Source: Myxococcaceae bacterium (GTDB taxonomy: Bacteria > Myxococcota > Myxococcia > Myxococcales > Myxococcaceae). Taken from it: a stretch of 38,103 nucleotides of DNA. The notes under the pieces were generated by a model that searched no databases, was not told where the DNA came from, and saw only the letters and a list, made by a program, of their open reading frames with translations. Positions within the stretch are counted from its first letter, which is position 1; every line of letters begins with the position of its first letter. Positions 30,683-37,947 of the stretch are shown here, one piece after another. The translations under genes were made by a program, and so were the position numbers. The DNA lies in contig JAFGNZ010000005.1 of the NCBI GenBank assembly GCA_016926755.1, positions 1-38,103 of the forward strand, given 5' to 3'.

Positions 30683-32956
30683 TCAGTGCGGCCCCAGCCT
30701 GAACCCCGGCTCCTGCTCCACCCCCGCGGGCGGGGTGCGCGGCAGCTCCACCGTGAAGAGCGCCCCCTCCCCCGGCTGGCTCTCCACCCGGATGAAACCT
30801 CCGTGCGCCTCCACCAGCTGGCGGACGATGTAGAGGCCCAGCCCGAAGCCCGCATGCCGCCCCCCGGACTTCTCCCGCTCGAAGCGCTCGAAGATGCGCC
30901 GCTGCGCCTCCGGCGGAATGCCCGCCCCGTGGTCCCTCACCTTCAGCCGGACCCACTCGCCGGACTGCGCCAGGCGGACCTCCACGGGCTTGCCCCGCCC
31001 GAACTTCAGCGCGTTGGACAGCAGGTTCGTCACCACGCGCTCCAGCCGCAGGCGATCCCACCACCCCTCGAGCTCTCCCTCCGCCTCGAAGGAGATCAGG
31101 CAGCCCGCCTCGGTGGCCTGCTCGGCGTGGCGCTCCACCACCTCGCGCACCAGCTCCGTGAGCTCCACCCGCGACACGTCCAGCACCAGCTTCCCCGAGG
31201 ACAGCCGTGACAGATCCAACAGGTTGTGCAGCAGCTGCCCCAGCCGCTGCGCGTTGCGCAGCGCCGCCCCCAGCCCCTCGCGGACCCGCTCGGGCTCGGC
31301 CGCCGGGTCCACCCGCTTCAGCCGCGCCAGCTGCAGCTGCAGCGCGTTGAGCGGGTTGCTCAAGTCGTGCGAGGTGACACCGATCAGCTCCAGCGCCCGC
31401 TGGGCCTCCTGGAAGAGCCGCGCGTTGTCCAGCGCCAGCGCCGCCCGGCCCGCCAGCTCCTCCACGAAGACCTGCTCCGTCACCGTGAAGCGGCGCTCCG
31501 GCTGGGAGGACATCAGCACCAGCGCGCCGGAGGTCTGCTCGCCCACCGTCAGCGGCACCATGAGCACCGAGGCCAGCTCCAGCCGCCGCAGCAGGCGCAG
31601 GTGCTCCTCGTCCAGGGCCACCTGCCGCAGCCGCTCGTCCGTCACCACCTCGGCCCGCTCCGAGCGGCCCGTGTGCACCACCCGCGAGATGCCAAAGGAG
31701 TCCGGCTCCTCCGGGTGGCAGCGGAGCACCTCCCACAGCAGCCGCTCCTTCTCCGCCGAGGCGTGCGTCACCGCCTTCGGCAGCAGCCGGCCGCCCTCCG
31801 TGAGCATGAAGAGGATGCACCCATCCGCCACCTCCGGCACCATCAGCCGCGCCAGCTCCGCCACCGTCAGCTCCGGCTCCTGCAGCTGGTTGAAGATGCG
31901 CCCGGCCTCCGCGAAGAGGCGCTGGGTGCGCTCGGTGCGCCGGCGCTCCGTCACGTCGCGCGTCACCTTGGCGAAGCCCTTCAGCTCCCCATTCTCGCTG
32001 CGCAGCGCGGTGTAGATGACCTCCGCCCAGAAGCGCGTGCCGTCCTTGCGCACCCCCCAGCCCTCGGTGCGCAGCCGCCCGTCCCGCTCGGCGCGCGCCA
32101 GGTCCCGCTCCGGCTCCCCCGCCGCCACCGACTCCGGCGTATAGAAGAGGGCGTTGGGGCGCCCCAGCACCTCCTCCGCCCTCCAGCCCTTGATGCGCTC
32201 GGCGCCCGGGTTCCAGCTCGCCACGCGCCCCCGCGCATCCAGCAGGTAGAGCGCGTAGTCCTGCACGCCCTCCACCAGCAGCCGGAAGCGCTGCTCGACG
32301 TCCTCCACCTCGCGGTGCAGCGGGTGCAGCTTGCGGATGAGCACCCACGCCAGGCTCGCCATGCCGAGCAGGCCCAGCACGGAGCCGGTGATGATGAGGG
32401 CCAGCGCGCGATGATCCTCGACGATCTCGTGCCGGAAGCTGCGCTCCAGCCGCTCATGGCTGTGCTTCGCCAGCTGCCCGAGCGCCACCTCCACCTGCGC
32501 GCGGGCGCGCCCCACCTGCTTGCGCAGCAGCGCGTCCACCTCCTGTTGGCTGTGGGCGTCCTGCTGCGACCACAGGAGCCGCCGCATCACCTCCTCGTGC
32601 TCACGCTCGGCACGGAGGAGCTCGTCCAGCAGCGCCGGGCCCGGCGCCTCCCTCAAGCGAAGACGGAGCCGCTCGGCCGCCAGCAGGAAGCGCTCGCGAT
32701 CGGCCCCCATCTGCTCCTCGAACAGGGCGTCCCGGGTGATGATGAAGCCTCGCTCGCTGCCCACCTTGTCGTAGAAGGCCTTTCGCAGCCGGTCGACCTC
32801 GAGCAGCTCCGAGACCAGCTCCCGGCTGACGAGCTCGCTGCCCACGTTGACGCTCCGCACCGCGAGCACGGCAGTCACGAGGATGACGAACGCCACCCCC
32901 CCGACGACCACCAGCCCTGCACCGATGCGGCGTGCGAACGTCCACGAGCGCCTCAT
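30683..32956 (-). CDS. CHASE3-PAS-GAF hybrid-sensor histidine kinase, orphan
   Basis: A 757-residue membrane kinase. Domains in order: TM helix about 11-33; a periplasmic CHASE3-like helical domain about 35-180 ('FYDKVGSERGFIITRD' is the typical core); TM about 185-206; PAS about 220-340 ('LLVEGVQDYALYLLDARGRVASWNPGAERIKGW'); GAF about 345-515; HisKA with H530 in 'VTSHDLSNPLN'; HATPase with N box 'NLLSNALKFG', G1 'DHGAGIPPE' and G2 'GFGLGLYIVRQL'. No receiver domain or regulator is adjacent. The ATG at 32956 starts just before the first helix after a purine-rich run; upstream codons in the same frame (to 33439) belong to the pseudogene. CHASE3 ligands are unknown. Confidence 0.9.
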   Translation of the reverse strand: MRRSWTFARRIGAGLVVVGGVAFVILVTAVLAVRSVNVGSELVSRELVSELLEVDRLRKAFYDKVGSERGFIITRDALFEEQMGADRERFLLAAERLRLRLREAPGPALLDELLRAEREHEEVMRRLLWSQQDAHSQQEVDALLRKQVGRARAQVEVALGQLAKHSHERLERSFRHEIVEDHRALALIITGSVLGLLGMASLAWVLIRKLHPLHREVEDVEQRFRLLVEGVQDYALYLLDARGRVASWNPGAERIKGWRAEEVLGRPNALFYTPESVAAGEPERDLARAERDGRLRTEGWGVRKDGTRFWAEVIYTALRSENGELKGFAKVTRDVTERRRTERTQRLFAEAGRIFNQLQEPELTVAELARLMVPEVADGCILFMLTEGGRLLPKAVTHASAEKERLLWEVLRCHPEEPDSFGISRVVHTGRSERAEVVTDERLRQVALDEEHLRLLRRLELASVLMVPLTVGEQTSGALVLMSSQPERRFTVTEQVFVEELAGRAALALDNARLFQEAQRALELIGVTSHDLSNPLNALQLQLARLKRVDPAAEPERVREGLGAALRNAQRLGQLLHNLLDLSRLSSGKLVLDVSRVELTELVREVVERHAEQATEAGCLISFEAEGELEGWWDRLRLERVVTNLLSNALKFGRGKPVEVRLAQSGEWVRLKVRDHGAGIPPEAQRRIFERFEREKSGGRHAGFGLGLYIVRQLVEAHGGFIRVESQPGEGALFTVELPRTPPAGVEQEPGFRLGPH

Positions 32957-32970
32957 CCCTCCCCCCCCTC

Positions 32971-33015
32971 GCCCCCCCGAGGAGGGCTTGGGGGGCCTGG
33001 CACAAGGTGTGCCAG
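32971..33015. terminator. two tandem hairpins upstream of the CHASE3 kinase
   Basis: GCCCCCC (32971-32977) pairs with GGGGGGC (32990-32996). Directly next to it, CTGGCACA (32997-33004) pairs perfectly with TGTGCCAG (33008-33015) around AGG. Both lie 15-60 nt before the kinase start on its strand, at the decayed end of the pseudogene. They may terminate upstream transcription or regulate the kinase. Confidence 0.45.
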
Positions 33016-33421
33016 TGTGGCGGCGGGAAGAAGCCGCCCCGCCGGACGTGCGCGTTGTTGGAAACCAGTCCGAGCGAGCGCTCCCAGTGCTCGTGGAAGC
33101 ACTCGGGGCCGAGGTGCTCGATGAGCTGGCGCTCGCGGGAGCTGGCCTCGGGGGTGCCAACCTGGGTGGGCAGCGCGTAGCGCTGGACCAGGACGATGCC
33201 GCCGCCGAGGCCCGTGAAGGCAGAGCCGCTCTCCGAACATGTGAACGAAGGGCGGGCCGAAGAAGGTGCGCCAGAAGAGCCCTGCCAGGCCCTGGCCGTA
33301 CCTCATCGGGCGAAACCACCGCTACTCTTCGAAGACGCGCCGGTAGAACTCTCGGATGACGGAGCTTGTCGGGACGCCTGGTGGTCGCCAGATCCCCGTT
33401 GTCGGGGCTCAGGTAGCTCAT
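33001..33421 (-). pseudogene. decayed gene with two frameshifts and a stop, unrecognised family
   Basis: Three minus-strand frames give consecutive natural-looking peptide: MSYLSPDNGDLATTRRPDKL (33421-33362), then after a shift near 33360 'VIREFYRRVFEE', TAG at 33322-33324, 'RWFRPMRYGQGLAGLFWRTF' up to 'FVHMFGE', then after another shift near 33229-33235 'GSAFTGLGGGIVLVQRYALP' through 'ECFHEHWERSLGL'. All have G/C third positions. The TAG is one base from TAC. The original protein was at least 140 residues; I do not recognise it. The 3' end is lost in the GC hairpins before the kinase. A sequencing error could mimic one shift but hardly all three lesions. Confidence 0.65.
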
Positions 33422-33559
33422 CGGATCACCGCGGGCCACGGTAACCCAGGGCCTTGGGATTCAGCGAGTACGCCCCACCGAGCCCTATTCACCAGCAAGC
33501 GCTTGGGTAGAATGAGCGGAGACCCCGCGCAAGGCGGACTGACAGATATTCGAGGGGGC

Positions 33560-34444
33560 ATGCCAGTCGAATCTGCGGATGGTGGAGGGCGCTCGTGGCT
33601 CGCCGAGTCCGTGCGTGAGAAAAGGCGTCTGATCTGGACAGGGCACGGTGCGTCATTTGCTCTCGCCCAGGTATTCGCGGCGGTGTTGGAGGAGCAAGGC
33701 TGTCCCACCCTCTCGCTCCCGCTCTCCCAGTGTGGCGGCGCAGAGGTCTGTCTGGTGTCCCAGTCCGCGCGCGATCCAGGAATCCCTGTTGCGCTCCTGA
33801 TCACCGAGGCGGGGCGAAAACCGGATTGGACTTCCGTACCGCGACTCGAAGTCCCTCATCTAGGGCAGCTTGAGTGGCTGCCACTGTCATTCATGAGGGA
33901 GGCGCTGAGAGTGTTTGGCCTCGCGCTGGGAGTGCCGGCAAGGCCTGTCTCGTGGGTGCCCCAGCGCGAGCCGCGGAGCGAGATCCTGGTCGTGGAGCAG
34001 TATGTGGAGCCCCTGCGGGCGCTCGTGGGCGCCGCGAGGCACAAGCTGGAAGGCTTCCCGCTGGAGGTCGCCTCGTGTGATGAGCTGGGTCACGGCCTGC
34101 ATGCGCGGCTCTGGCGGCGGCCTGGGGCATATCGGGTGAGGTTGCTGTGCCTGCCCGGGGCAGAGCAGGGGCGGATGGATGCCGTGCGCAAGTGGTGCGA
34201 GCAGGCAGGGACTTCCCTCGTGGAGATGAGGCTGGCCACTTCCACTGAGGAGGAGGCAGGAACACGACCCTTGGAAGTCTTCGAGCAGAGCCTTGCCCTC
34301 ATTGCCGAGCTGTGCGTGGCACATGGGATCGACTGGCGAGAGCGCCAGGTTCCGGCGGAAGCGGACTGGTTGAGAGATGTACGGCCCGGCGAGGAGGAGC
34401 GTGTGCCGGCTCCTGGAGGCAAGTCATGCGCTGGGCGCTCGTAA
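33560..34444 (+). CDS. SIS-domain protein, GlmS-isomerase-like, no glutaminase
   Basis: A protein of about 294 residues that looks like a double SIS (sugar isomerase) fold. First half: 'LIWTGHGASFALAQVFAAVLEEQG' (usual GxGxSxxxA phosphosugar loop), 'LVSQSARDPG' (SQSGxS-like). Second half: 'DELGHGLHARL', at the place of the GlmS 'ExxHG' segment, and a C-terminal 'LIAELCVAHGIDWRERQVP' like the end of GlmS isomerase domains. It lacks the N-terminal glutaminase of GlmS. It may isomerise or deaminate an amino-sugar phosphate, but some SIS residues are replaced. It overlaps the next gene by 19 nt, so the two are translationally coupled. GAGG lies 4 nt before ATG 33560; ATG 33512 is an alternative with no ribosome site. 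Confidence 0.65.
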   Translation: MPVESADGGGRSWLAESVREKRRLIWTGHGASFALAQVFAAVLEEQGCPTLSLPLSQCGGAEVCLVSQSARDPGIPVALLITEAGRKPDWTSVPRLEVPHLGQLEWLPLSFMREALRVFGLALGVPARPVSWVPQREPRSEILVVEQYVEPLRALVGAARHKLEGFPLEVASCDELGHGLHARLWRRPGAYRVRLLCLPGAEQGRMDAVRKWCEQAGTSLVEMRLATSTEEEAGTRPLEVFEQSLALIAELCVAHGIDWRERQVPAEADWLRDVRPGEEERVPAPGGKSCAGRS

Positions 34445-36861
34445 CGGGTGGCGTCTGCTCGGGACTTGGCAAGGGCTGCGTAGCGGCGATGGTGGCGCGG
34501 GCCTGCGCGCGAGCCGGTCAGCGTGTGGCGTACCAGAAGCTGGAGCCTTGTCTGCAGGGTGGCATCGAGTCCTTGCCGAATACGTTCTTCGGGGAGATCG
34601 TCCACACCGCCTCGGGCGCGAGCTTCGATGGAGATGTGGCTCGGGCGGCCTTCTATGTGCCGGGCTTCCTACCAGAGGAGAGGGCCGACCTCTCTCTCGG
34701 TCGATTGCTCGCGGACGTGCTGGCCCGTACCCGCGGAATGCCCGCCCCAAGGTTCCAGGACATGGATGCCGTGCTCTGGAGCAGATTCCAGGGAGTGGAG
34801 ACGAGCGTCGTGGAGGTCGGGGGGACGGCGGGGGAGAAAGAGCACCGGCTCGTCTGCGAAGCACTCCGGCGCGTGTTGGGCCCTCCGGCGCTCCATGTGC
34901 ACGTGACAGCGCTCATTGCGTCGCCGCAGGGGCGATGGACCACGAAGCCCGCGCAGCTCTCCATCGAGGCGCTGGCACTCCCTGTCGATCTCGTGCTCGT
35001 GCGCGGAGCGGCCGCGCATGACGAAGAGCTCACACCGCTGCGGCTCACCGTGGGGGAGTGGGTGCCGGTGCTCAGGCTCCCCGAGGAGCCGGACTGGCCA
35101 GAGCGCGCGGCTACGCGGACGCTGCGCACCCCGCTGCTTGCGCAGCTCCTCCGGCAGAGACTGGGCGTGGAGCAAGGAACGGATCCACTGTTTGAGCCCT
35201 GGGATGGCAATCGGGAGGCACCTCAAGAGGTCGTCGTCGTTCATGATGGTGCCGGGGAGGAGGGCTACGCGAGCCTCGCCCACCGACTGCGCGCATGGTC
35301 GCGCGGGCGCCTGCGCATCCGGTGGCAGGCGGAGGGGTGGGTGGAGCGTGCGATCGGGGTGTGCCGGATTGGCGAACAGCCTGTCGCTGAACTCCAGCTT
35401 CAGGCACAGGTGCCGGTCCAGGTGATCGTCCCCCCGGAACAGGGGCTTCCTCCTCGAGATGTAAAGGCTCGACCGGACTGGTGGGGTACGGCTGATGCTC
35501 CCGAGGGCCCCTTGGTGCGCTTCATCGAGGCTGTGCTCGCCCCGCCTCGTCCAGGTAAACAAGGAGACGACCTGGCCTATGCTGATCCTGAATTCGCGGC
35601 GATCTACCTCGCGGCGAGCCAGACGGGTGCGCTGCGTGATCACACCTCGCTGGATGCGCTCGTCGCGCGTGCGCTGCCAGCCGGTGAGCGGCTCCAGCAA
35701 GCGCGGGTATTGGATGTGGGCTGCGGTGCCGGACGCTGGGCCGCGCGCCTCATCGCCGCGGGGGCCCGGGAAGTCGTAGGGGTTGAACCAGCGCCTCCCA
35801 TGGCCGCCGCCGCGGCTGTGCTGGGGCTGGAGCGGTTCAGGCTTGTTCGCGGTGCCATTGAGGACTACCAGCCGGAAGGCCTCTTCGATGCGGTGCTGGC
35901 GAGCATGTCCCTCGATCATGTCGAGAGGATCCCGGATGTGCTGGGGCGGCTGGCCTCGCACCTCGTACCCCATGGCCGGCTGGTGGTCTCGACGGAGCAC
36001 CCGCTGCGGACCGCGCCGCGCTCGGGGCCTCGCTGGGTGGAGGAGGCCGGAGGGAGAGCAGCGCGGCTCCGCGACTATGGGGAGGAGGGGTGGCGCACGT
36101 TCCACTGGTTCGGACACCCCGCGCTTGTCCGAGTGTACCACCGAACCGTGGGCTCCTGGGTGGCGCTGCTCCGTGAGGTAGGGCTTGAGCTCATCGCGCT
36201 CCACGAGCCGCTCCATGAGGATCCGCGTGACGCGGGCAATCCCCGGTTCTGGCTGCTCGTCGCGAAGAGGCCCGGACCTCGGCGACTGCTCGTCACGGTG
36301 GATGGAGGTGCTGGGAGTGGCAAGACCACCTTTGGCCAGGCGTTGGCGTCACGCTTGGAATGGACACTGCTGGACACCGGCCAGCTCCAGCGAGCCTTTG
36401 CGTGGCGCTGGCTCAAAGAGAGGCGGGAGGCTCCTGTCCGGCTGCGCGTCGAGGCAGGAAAGCCCCGATACCATGTCGGTGAGAGCGATGTGACCGAAGC
36501 GCTGGGAGGAGAGGACATTGCGCGTGCGTGCGCGGACGTGGCCAGGGAGCCACGCGAGGTGGCGGAGATGGCTGTGCTGCTCGACGAGCTCACGCAGGAG
36601 CGCTGTGTCATCACTGGACGTGCCATGGGGCGCCTCTACGGTGATGCGCTGGCAAGGTTCTTCCTCACCGCCCCTATCGAGGTCCGCGCAGTCCGACGCG
36701 GGTGCGCCCCATCATGGATCGAAGAGCGTGATCGCCGGGACATGGAGCGAGGGCGGCTGCTGCCACCGGATATCGACTCGGTGAGCTTCGACACGGGTGC
36801 GGAGGGGCTCGACAAGCTCGTCACGCGGGCGGTCGACATCGTACGCTCACGGTTGGGATAA
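34426..36861 (+). CDS. CTP-synthase-like / SAM methyltransferase / CMP-kinase-like fusion
   Basis: An 811-residue three-enzyme protein. (1) Residues 1-245 match the synthetase half of CTP synthase: 'LVTGGVCSGLGKG' P-loop (K16), 'FGEIVHTASGASFDGD' with acidic D68/D70, 'VEVGGTAGEKE' (E130), 'TTKPAQLS'. (2) About 255-345 recalls the start of the glutaminase half but is short and lacks its Cys/His triad. (3) 390-612 is a class I methyltransferase ('VLDVGCGAGRWAARL', 427-441). (4) 619-811 resembles cytidylate kinase: Walker A 'GGAGSGKTT', 'LLDTGQLQRAFAW', 'VITGRAMGRLYGDALARFFL', 'IEERDRRDMERGRLLPPDIDSVSFDT'. CTGGAGG lies 6 nt before ATG 34426. It is coupled to the SIS gene. A role in making a modified pyrimidine nucleotide is inferred. 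Confidence 0.8.
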   Translation: MRWALVTGGVCSGLGKGCVAAMVARACARAGQRVAYQKLEPCLQGGIESLPNTFFGEIVHTASGASFDGDVARAAFYVPGFLPEERADLSLGRLLADVLARTRGMPAPRFQDMDAVLWSRFQGVETSVVEVGGTAGEKEHRLVCEALRRVLGPPALHVHVTALIASPQGRWTTKPAQLSIEALALPVDLVLVRGAAAHDEELTPLRLTVGEWVPVLRLPEEPDWPERAATRTLRTPLLAQLLRQRLGVEQGTDPLFEPWDGNREAPQEVVVVHDGAGEEGYASLAHRLRAWSRGRLRIRWQAEGWVERAIGVCRIGEQPVAELQLQAQVPVQVIVPPEQGLPPRDVKARPDWWGTADAPEGPLVRFIEAVLAPPRPGKQGDDLAYADPEFAAIYLAASQTGALRDHTSLDALVARALPAGERLQQARVLDVGCGAGRWAARLIAAGAREVVGVEPAPPMAAAAAVLGLERFRLVRGAIEDYQPEGLFDAVLASMSLDHVERIPDVLGRLASHLVPHGRLVVSTEHPLRTAPRSGPRWVEEAGGRAARLRDYGEEGWRTFHWFGHPALVRVYHRTVGSWVALLREVGLELIALHEPLHEDPRDAGNPRFWLLVAKRPGPRRLLVTVDGGAGSGKTTFGQALASRLEWTLLDTGQLQRAFAWRWLKERREAPVRLRVEAGKPRYHVGESDVTEALGGEDIARACADVAREPREVAEMAVLLDELTQERCVITGRAMGRLYGDALARFFLTAPIEVRAVRRGCAPSWIEERDRRDMERGRLLPPDIDSVSFDTGAEGLDKLVTRAVDIVRSRLG

Positions 36862-36866
36862 CAACG

Positions 36867-37577
36867 CTACCGGACATCACGAACCAGGCCCGTCTTGTCA
36901 TGAATCTTGTCATCACGTGTATCAAGCGCCCCGTCTTGACCCGCGAAAGTGAGCACGTATCCGCGACCTGGATCTGGCTCATAGCGAATCTTTGAGTTTC
37001 TGAGGATGGGTATCTCCTCTGGGAGCTGAGGATACTCAGTGATGAGGTGGGTCAGCGATTCGGGATAGCTCCCGTGCTTCCGTTGGTAGGAGTTTATGGC
37101 ATCAACGATTCTATTGACCGCGGCACGGTCACGTTGGCCCTGCACCACTGGCAGTTGAGAGGGATCTGACGCCATCCGCTTGATCTGCTCTCTATCGAGC
37201 CTGCTGATGACCCCGCTTTCAACGAGAAACAGCAGTTTCTTCTTGGCGAGATCGAGATCGTCCGTAGCAGGGTCGTTGTCCGTAACAAGGGCTTTTTCAA
37301 GGAGGCCGTACTCGAACTTTTGCTGTTCAAGACTTGCGTTCCAGTAACCCTGCAGACCCGCACCCAGCCCGGTCCCCAGCACCCCAAACAATGCTGAGAA
37401 GACCGCGACGATGACAGGTGACGACAACGCCGCGGTCTTTCGATTGCTCTCCTGCTCCCTCTTCCTGAGTTCCAACTCGGCTTCCCTGAGCCGCAGGTCC
37501 CCTTCAACCTTCAGCCGGTCCAGTTCCGCGGGGGAGAAACCAGGGGAGCTCGATTCGGGGCCAGTCATCTCGTTCAT
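36867..37577 (-). CDS. membrane protein with GspG-like C-terminal domain
   Basis: A 236-residue protein. An N-terminal charged helix (about 15-45, 'LKVEGDLRLREAELELRKRE') leads to one membrane helix (51-76). Next is a helical segment, 'SLEQQKFEYGLLEKAL ... LLFLVESGVIS', of a kind seen in many bacterial one-helix membrane proteins. The C-terminus (about 150-228) looks like a type II secretion pseudopilin GspG end: 'AINSYQRKHGSYPESLTHLI', then 'GYVLTFAGQDGALDTRDD'. It has no prepilin peptidase site, so it is not a pseudopilin. Third positions are clearly less GC-rich than in most genes here, suggesting recent acquisition. Role unknown. Convergent with the fusion gene, 5 nt apart; the start at 37577 is preceded by GAGAAGG. 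Confidence 0.7.
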   Translation of the reverse strand: MNEMTGPESSSPGFSPAELDRLKVEGDLRLREAELELRKREQESNRKTAALSSPVIVAVFSALFGVLGTGLGAGLQGYWNASLEQQKFEYGLLEKALVTDNDPATDDLDLAKKKLLFLVESGVISRLDREQIKRMASDPSQLPVVQGQRDRAAVNRIVDAINSYQRKHGSYPESLTHLITEYPQLPEEIPILRNSKIRYEPDPGRGYVLTFAGQDGALDTRDDKIHDKTGLVRDVR

Positions 37578-37683: not shown

Positions 37684-37947
37684 CTAGTCCTCCGGATCAT
37701 CCAAGGCTTCAAGCGAGGTCTCGGCGATCTCGCGGTAGTGGGGCACGACCTCCACGGCGAGCACGTCACGCATCTGCTGGCGCGCCCCATCGAGATCTCC
37801 CGCCTCCTGCAGGCGCCGCATCTGCGTCATGGCACGAGAGAGTCGCTGTGAGCCGTCGCGGATGCGCCGTGCCAGCTCCCGCAGCAGGTCGGTCGCGGTA
37901 GGAACTGTATGGAGGGCCTGTTCTGCTTCTTCGGCGTCGATGGCCAC
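37684..37947 (-). CDS. DUSAM (DUF2379) protein, N-terminally truncated
   Basis: The product (87 residues from GTG 37947) matches the C-terminal two-thirds of the myxobacterial DUSAM/DUF2379 family: 'EEAEQALHTVPTATDLLREL', 'RRLQEAGDLDGARQQMRDVL', 'VEVVPHYREIAE'. The same frame continues upstream as 'TGTIEEGEPLILTEDVRAIL' to a TGA at 38026-38028, also family-like, but with no ATG, GTG or TTG before 37947. The normal first 20-25 residues are absent. So either a short GTG-started product is made, or the gene is a 5'-truncated relic. Homology stops at the inverted repeat 38020-38052. Family function is unknown; members are numerous in myxobacterial genomes. Confidence 0.7.
   Translation of the reverse strand: MAIDAEEAEQALHTVPTATDLLRELARRIRDGSQRLSRAMTQMRRLQEAGDLDGARQQMRDVLAVEVVPHYREIAETSLEALDDPED

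Follow-up and report, generated by a model that had tools for sequence, protein, structure and literature searches.

The stretch of DNA analysed here (the window) comprises 38,103 nucleotides of a Myxococcaceae bacterium, positions 1–38103 of contig JAFGNZ010000005.1; the host genome is 9.6 Mb in size and is assembled into 409 contigs. Two overlapping genes lie on the + strand of the window: P0002 (33560–34444), an open reading frame translated into 294 aa that could not be assigned to any family, and P0001 (34426–36861), which encodes 811 aa and shares its first 19 nt with the end of P0002. The initial annotation had placed the two genes correctly. A purine-rich stretch was seen by eye just 5’ of the ATG codon in both of them. 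P0001 is a single chain with three domains, namely a CTP-synthase (CTPS) synthetase-like domain (34426–35025, residues about 1–200), a class I S-adenosylmethionine (SAM)-dependent methyltransferase domain (35647–36195, residues 408–590) and a (d)CMP-kinase-like domain (36286–36858, residues 621–811). The unassigned middle stretch between the first two (35146–35595, residues about 241–390) occupies the position that the glutaminase has in PyrG. We propose, with a probability of about 0.4, that P0001 is an active enzyme of specialised metabolism, whose three domains would take one phosphorylated, probably nucleotide-like compound through three steps.

P0001 is a real, unusual fusion built from known families. 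Its frame of 811 codons is intact, and the GC content by codon position (0.77/0.52/0.76) has the pattern of a coding frame; together, the length of the open frame and the coding-type composition argue for maintenance of the gene. The GC content at the third codon position (GC3) equals 0.759 for P0001 and 0.729 for P0002. An antisense open frame of 515 codons (34669–36216, − strand, GC by codon position 0.76/0.51/0.81) runs across P0001 and is most likely a shadow of this GC-rich sense gene.

The N-terminal domain is matched by the Pfam family CTP_synth_N (E 1.3e-15, above the cut-off, in two stretches, the best at residues 3–102) and, in the PDB sequence search, by E. coli PyrG (1s1m; residues 3–192, E 1.9e-11). 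All 25 PDB matches of the N-terminal part below E 1e-3 are CTP synthases, and all fall within residues 1–202. The identity to the PyrG of the same genome is 27% across 196 columns. The C-terminal domain is matched by Cytidylate_kin (residues 623–759, Pfam E 1.3e-18, above the cut-off) and by E. coli Cmk (1kdo; E 6.8e-10 across chain residues 7–224, which is nearly the full length); all 11 PDB matches of this part at E ≤ 1 are cytidylate kinases. Thus, as judged by sequence, residues 1–245 and 619–811 do not belong to unrelated P-loop families, an outcome on which the initial annotation had made its reading depend. On the other hand, the NCBIfam equivalog cut-offs were far from reached both for CTP synthase (56.4 bits vs 308 for NF003792, 48.6 vs 462.75 for TIGR00337) and for the kinase (59 bits vs 135.55 for TIGR00017). 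Hence the two domains are relatives of CTP synthase and (d)CMP kinase, not members of these families.

For the analysis of individual positions, the N-terminal domain was aligned with 32 PyrG proteins that passed a motif filter, taken from 61 loci examined; positions are given below in the E. coli numbering. These PyrG share 81 columns with an identity of 97% or more, and P0001 retains 37 of them. The kept positions include T9, G10, G11, V12, S14, L16–G19 (with K18), K40, D72, E140, E149, T188-K189-P190, Q192 and R211. Five of them, K18, K40, D72, E140 and R211, which we take to be the ATP/Mg-site residues of E. coli CTP synthase, correspond to K16, K38, D70, E130 and R193 of P0001. The lost positions include K187, K223, H57, P54, V60, E68 and D147. 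Among these, K187 and K223, presumably the lysines holding the triphosphate of UTP, are Lys in 32 of 32 PyrG and are replaced by T172 and T208 in P0001.

Some positions could be linked to published work. In yeast Ura8, the ammonia channel is narrowed by P52, C58 and H55 (PMC8641951); mapped to P54, V60 and H57 of the E. coli enzyme, they indicate that the channel gate is changed in P0001. In human CTPS1, E155 touches both the ribose and the base of CTP (PMC12312343); we mapped it to E149, whose equivalent is kept. Taken together, these patterns suggest that the ATP-driven activation chemistry of the domain may survive, and that the domain probably no longer recognises the triphosphate of UTP or receives ammonia from a glutaminase. 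A structure model of residues 1–392, built with 27 PyrG rows (31 from a loose filter minus four cut-off ones), matches PyrG 1s1m with TMq 0.64, a partly circular result given that PyrG rows were the input of the model; its confidence is fair for residues about 1–190 only.

The middle stretch carries no significant glutaminase signal. A Pfam scan at E ≤ 1 listed 19 families, none of them a glutaminase. Scored with a hidden Markov model (HMM) of the PyrG glutaminase, residues 241–380 were not clearly above shuffled sequences: the whole stretch ranked 397 of 1370 scored (3002 sequences given), and its parts 241–300, 301–380 and 331–378 ranked 388 of 1056, 149 of 1113 and 72 of 812 scored, respectively (2001 given each). 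The motif G-x-C-x-G is absent from residues 241–407, which contain one Cys. MAFFT does align pieces of the stretch with the C-terminus of PyrG, yet a decayed glutaminase in residues 241–380 gains no support from the HMM scores. The claim that the fusion has no functional glutaminase is therefore supported, and the changed channel gate fits its absence. In sum of likeness, the resemblance to PyrG extends over residues 1–202 at most and includes the five ATP/Mg-site residues, whereas K187, K223, H57, the channel gate and a detectable glutaminase are missing, and the domain is fused to other enzymes.

The methyltransferase domain was identified by Methyltransf_23 (residues 408–590, E 4.4e-16, 59.5 bits vs the cut-off of 27) and contains a glycine-rich motif I, LDVGCGAGRW. 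Methyltransferases also top the PDB sequence matches to the middle of P0001, with 3bkw leading (E 7.9e-15). The closest homologs among 195 genomes of the phylum have 38–40% identity and come from three genomes of one genus; the two of these three loci that were read encode, as judged by eye, stand-alone proteins. The family is generic. Both 3bkw and 3g5l match across the domain, motif I included, but they are titled only SAM-dependent or putative methyltransferases, and the domain of P0001 differs from them in being part of a fusion.

The kinase domain was aligned with 29 Cmk that passed the filter, from 30 loci fetched in the phylum search; with a conservation threshold of 90% among these Cmk, there are 54 conserved columns, of which it keeps 27. 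In Cmk numbering, the kept residues include the P-loop K18 as well as R41, R131, R181, D185 and R188 (K633, R656, R732, R768, D772 and R775 of P0001); the latter five are presumably the phosphate and ribose residues of Cmk. In contrast, S101, R110 and D132, which we assume to read cytosine in the E. coli CMP kinase and which are present in 29 of 29 Cmk, are replaced by A703, V712 or A713 (depending on the alignment) and A733, and the insert on the side of the nucleoside monophosphate (NMP) is shorter than in Cmk. The near full-length match is thus accompanied by retention of the P-loop, phosphate and ribose residues and by loss of those for the base. Given the loss of the three cytosine-reading residues, this domain looks like a kinase whose substrate is phosphorylated, may carry a ribose, and has either a different base or no base.

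These losses bear on two other explanations. The domain families as such would fit an ordinary backup CTP supply, in which an ammonia-dependent CTP synthase and a CMP kinase make CTP or CDP without glutamine. However, a regular PyrG (E 7.5e-128) and a regular Cmk (E 9.7e-67) are encoded elsewhere in this genome, P0001 lacks K187, K223 and the residues that would read cytosine, and the methyltransferase would be left unexplained, so that we consider a backup role very unlikely. The hypothetical pathway of the initial annotation, namely amidation of a pyrimidine nucleotide, methylation and phosphorylation, becomes less likely for UTP and CMP as substrates because the lysines for UTP and the residues reading cytosine (by their assumed roles) are gone, and those for ATP/Mg, phosphate and ribose stay. 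A shifted, nucleotide-like substrate would fit this pattern better than UTP or CMP.

The data show the three domains and their order, the conserved residues that are retained or lost, and the lack of the pair at the corresponding site of two congeners; we infer the activity of P0001, the order of its steps, the nature of its substrate and most of the residue roles. In the proposed scheme, the CTPS-like domain would transfer a phosphate from Mg-ATP to an acceptor oxygen, and ammonia or an amine would then displace the phosphate; because no glutaminase is present, the amine would be supplied from outside. The methyltransferase domain would methylate the aminated product, and the kinase domain would add a phosphate onto the phosphate of this product. 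The acceptor would be neither UTP nor CMP, since the residues reading them are gone, but another, nucleotide-like substrate. P0002 might act as a partner of P0001.

Secure domain matches and the retention of catalytic residues in all three domains favour this scheme. Several points weigh against it. Each of the two nucleotide domains lacks roughly half of its conserved columns. If residues were retained at random, the five ATP/Mg residues would all be kept with a probability of 0.017 and the six kinase residues with one of 0.0115, whereas all three base residues would be lost with one of 0.118, which makes the recognition-loss half of the pattern weak in itself. The tested residues were chosen with knowledge of the alignment, their roles are mostly assumed, and the column of K223 lies in a weakly aligned stretch. 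A Pfam scan of 20 neighbouring ORFs showed no pathway genes and no biosynthetic cluster that could be recognised. Finally, as no ortholog of P0001 was found, purifying selection could not be measured, and drift is compatible with the data.

These points lead to the alternative that P0001 is a decaying or regulatory pseudoenzyme, i.e. a captured, non-catalytic fusion that drifts or senses ATP, SAM or nucleotides. It would account for the single known copy, for the loss of about half of the conserved columns in both nucleotide domains, and for a GC3 below that of most neighbours. At the same time, the overlapping frames are intact, and catalytic residues are retained in all three domains simultaneously; we regard this explanation as rather doubtful, albeit one to be kept in mind.

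A narrower version of an active enzyme is a maker of a modified pyrimidine nucleotide. Here, the CTPS-like domain would aminate C4 of UMP or of a base-modified UMP, the base would be methylated (e.g. at N4), and the diphosphate of a methylated cytidylate would be formed by the kinase, whose base pocket is opened. Consistent with this, the lysines that are gone presumably bind the triphosphate in PyrG, the equivalents of E149 and Q192 are kept (E149 being taken as the counterpart of E155 of CTPS1, with its ribose and base contact; PMC12312343), and in the kinase the ribose and phosphate side is retained, with small nonpolar residues on the base side. Nevertheless, nothing in the data supports a pyrimidine directly, the methyltransferase family is generic, and no nucleoside-antibiotic genes were seen among the 20 neighbouring ORFs scanned; this version is unlikely. 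We view in much the same sceptical way the more general idea that P0001 by itself makes a novel modified nucleotide, in which one chain would activate and aminate a pyrimidine-like NMP, methylate it and phosphorylate it, with CTPS chemistry moved to the monophosphate level and an amine not derived from glutamine. If true, P0001 would represent a multi-domain enzyme of nucleotide modification not described before.

Few enzymes of nucleotide metabolism are as highly conserved as CTP synthase and CMP kinase. That their relatives in P0001 both keep catalytic residues and lose putative substrate-reading ones points to a perhaps new nucleotide-like metabolite. With a single gene of 2.4 kb, the product is open to a direct search by expression and mass spectrometry.

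The upstream gene, P0002, had been described as a GlmS-like SIS protein, the fourth in a set of predicted activities. Three of the four (CTPS-like, methyltransferase and kinase) proved secure, but no support was obtained for the fourth. P0002 has no matches to Pfam families at E ≤ 1 or to PDB sequences at E ≤ 10, and it is not among the PF01380 matches of its own genome at E ≤ 10; the single, weak NCBIfam match is to GlmD (E 0.11, residues 16–57). The resemblance seen by eye consists of a Glu-Leu-Gly-His-Gly stretch, to be compared with Glu-x-Lys-His-Gly of GlmS. Profile tests gave results no better than shuffles, and the GlmS-like SIS identity was dropped. With an HMM of 27 GlmS sequences, P0002 fell in the middle of its own shuffles (2002 given, 798 scored; index 375 when counting starts at 0); the probability from hhalign was 0.2%; 154 of 300 shuffles were as good or better with a position-specific scoring matrix, and 1077 of 2000 with a fixed block. 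An overlap alignment was equalled or surpassed by 31 of 150 shuffles and by 4 of 29 fragments of other proteins of the window. The GlmS rows in these tests all come from one phylum, and a remote link to SIS proteins may still exist. The single-sequence structure model of P0002 (pLDDT 37.5) was unusable: its matches were all weak and to unrelated proteins, and none of the 50 structure matches shown per list is a SIS protein.

Relatives of the fusion were searched for in several collections; such searches can miss motif-divergent relatives, and entries from this genome or a closely similar one may have been left out. Among the 195 genomes of the phylum, where the first-look scoring covered five candidates per genome for the full chain and at most ten for the CTPS part, the full chain of P0001 was found in its own genome only. 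Three further genomes match it from residue 422 onward only. The CTPS part has matches at E ≤ 1e-12 in 24 genomes, 23 of them other than its own, with 30–33% identity across residues 2–203. Among plasmids, P0001 has matches in 73 records, of which none reaches 80% coverage of the chain; every one of the 30 that were listed takes in the methyltransferase region (within 352–671). Seven phage records match either the methyltransferase or the kinase part alone, and no relative of the fusion was confirmed in viral contigs by exact 8-mer scans and motif patterns. No description of this CTPS/methyltransferase/kinase fusion appeared among the open-licence papers listed in literature searches.

A motif scan of 84,980 species yielded 41 stretches, in all of which tblastn of P0001 matches the CTPS domain with 21–32% identity. 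The strict PyrG filter with the glutaminase motif was passed by 14 of them and the loose filter by 31; on these grounds all 41 are consistent with housekeeping PyrG. In two of them a kinase match was seen as well, about 6 kb away from the CTPS match in one (L055) and on the other strand in the second (L060); the fusion is present in none of the 41. The pattern demanded Glu at the Asp of KLDP, so that relatives keeping Asp would escape it. The 41 PyrG-like stretches (L029–L069), which thus carry Glu for the usual Asp, include 19 titled Alphaproteobacteria and nine titled Mycoplasmataceae.

For P0002, one of 96 genomes of the family matches at E ≤ 0.001, and 20 of the 195 genomes of the phylum match at E ≤ 0.5, its own included. 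Two others in the latter set scored below 0.001 and were treated as noise; one of them overlaps, by eye, an HMG-CoA-reductase-like frame. P0002 has no plasmid match at E ≤ 0.1.

The two genes occupy an accessory-looking location, as had been suggested. The order of the genes for RtcB, an M50 peptidase, a metallo-beta-lactamase and a histidine kinase (30683–33439) is kept in two congeners (L163 and L164), the only two of the six congener stretches examined with a matching histidine kinase. Past this kinase, both carry other genes instead of P0002 and P0001, and neither of these two genes nor the convergent gene behind them has a match at E ≤ 1e-5 in any of the six stretches. Since the flanking order is kept and the pair is absent there, the region of P0002 and P0001 is an accessory segment, either gained here or lost there. 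Composition is a weak sign of foreign origin for the pair: GC3 of the neighbours is 0.81–0.97, partly by construction (a filter of GC3 above 0.80 was applied), and that of Pfam-supported neighbours such as the four named above is 0.91–0.97, but the DUF2379 gene next door, from a many-copy family in the genus, has 0.761. The initial annotation also mentioned pseudogenes; none was noticed among the neighbouring ORFs scanned, with no dedicated search made.

The strain-specific location and the nucleotide-type domains could suggest nucleotide-based defence, in which an altered nucleotide would stop phage polymerases, as the products of viperin do. This is the least probable of the explanations considered: run on P0001 and P0002, PADLOC reported only mad2 on the methyltransferase stretch (residues 401–539 of P0001), no defence genes were seen among the neighbouring ORFs scanned with Pfam, and relatives of the fusion were not found in the phage or viral collections.

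The histidine kinase adjoining the segment lies on the − strand, contains PAS, GAF, HisKA and HATPase domains, and was not seen as such in the other four congener stretches. On the other side, a convergent gene (36867–37577, − strand, 236 aa, GC3 0.654) has its stop codon 5 nt from that of P0001; it encodes a hydrophobic stretch, has no Pfam matches at E ≤ 0.001 and no plasmid matches, and may have arrived together with the pair. The DUF2379 gene follows at 37684–37947 (− strand). It was tried as a synteny marker and abandoned, as the family is multicopy and its loci are not syntenic, and the metallo-beta-lactamase gene served instead; the family has 11 matches in this genome and 24 in one congener.

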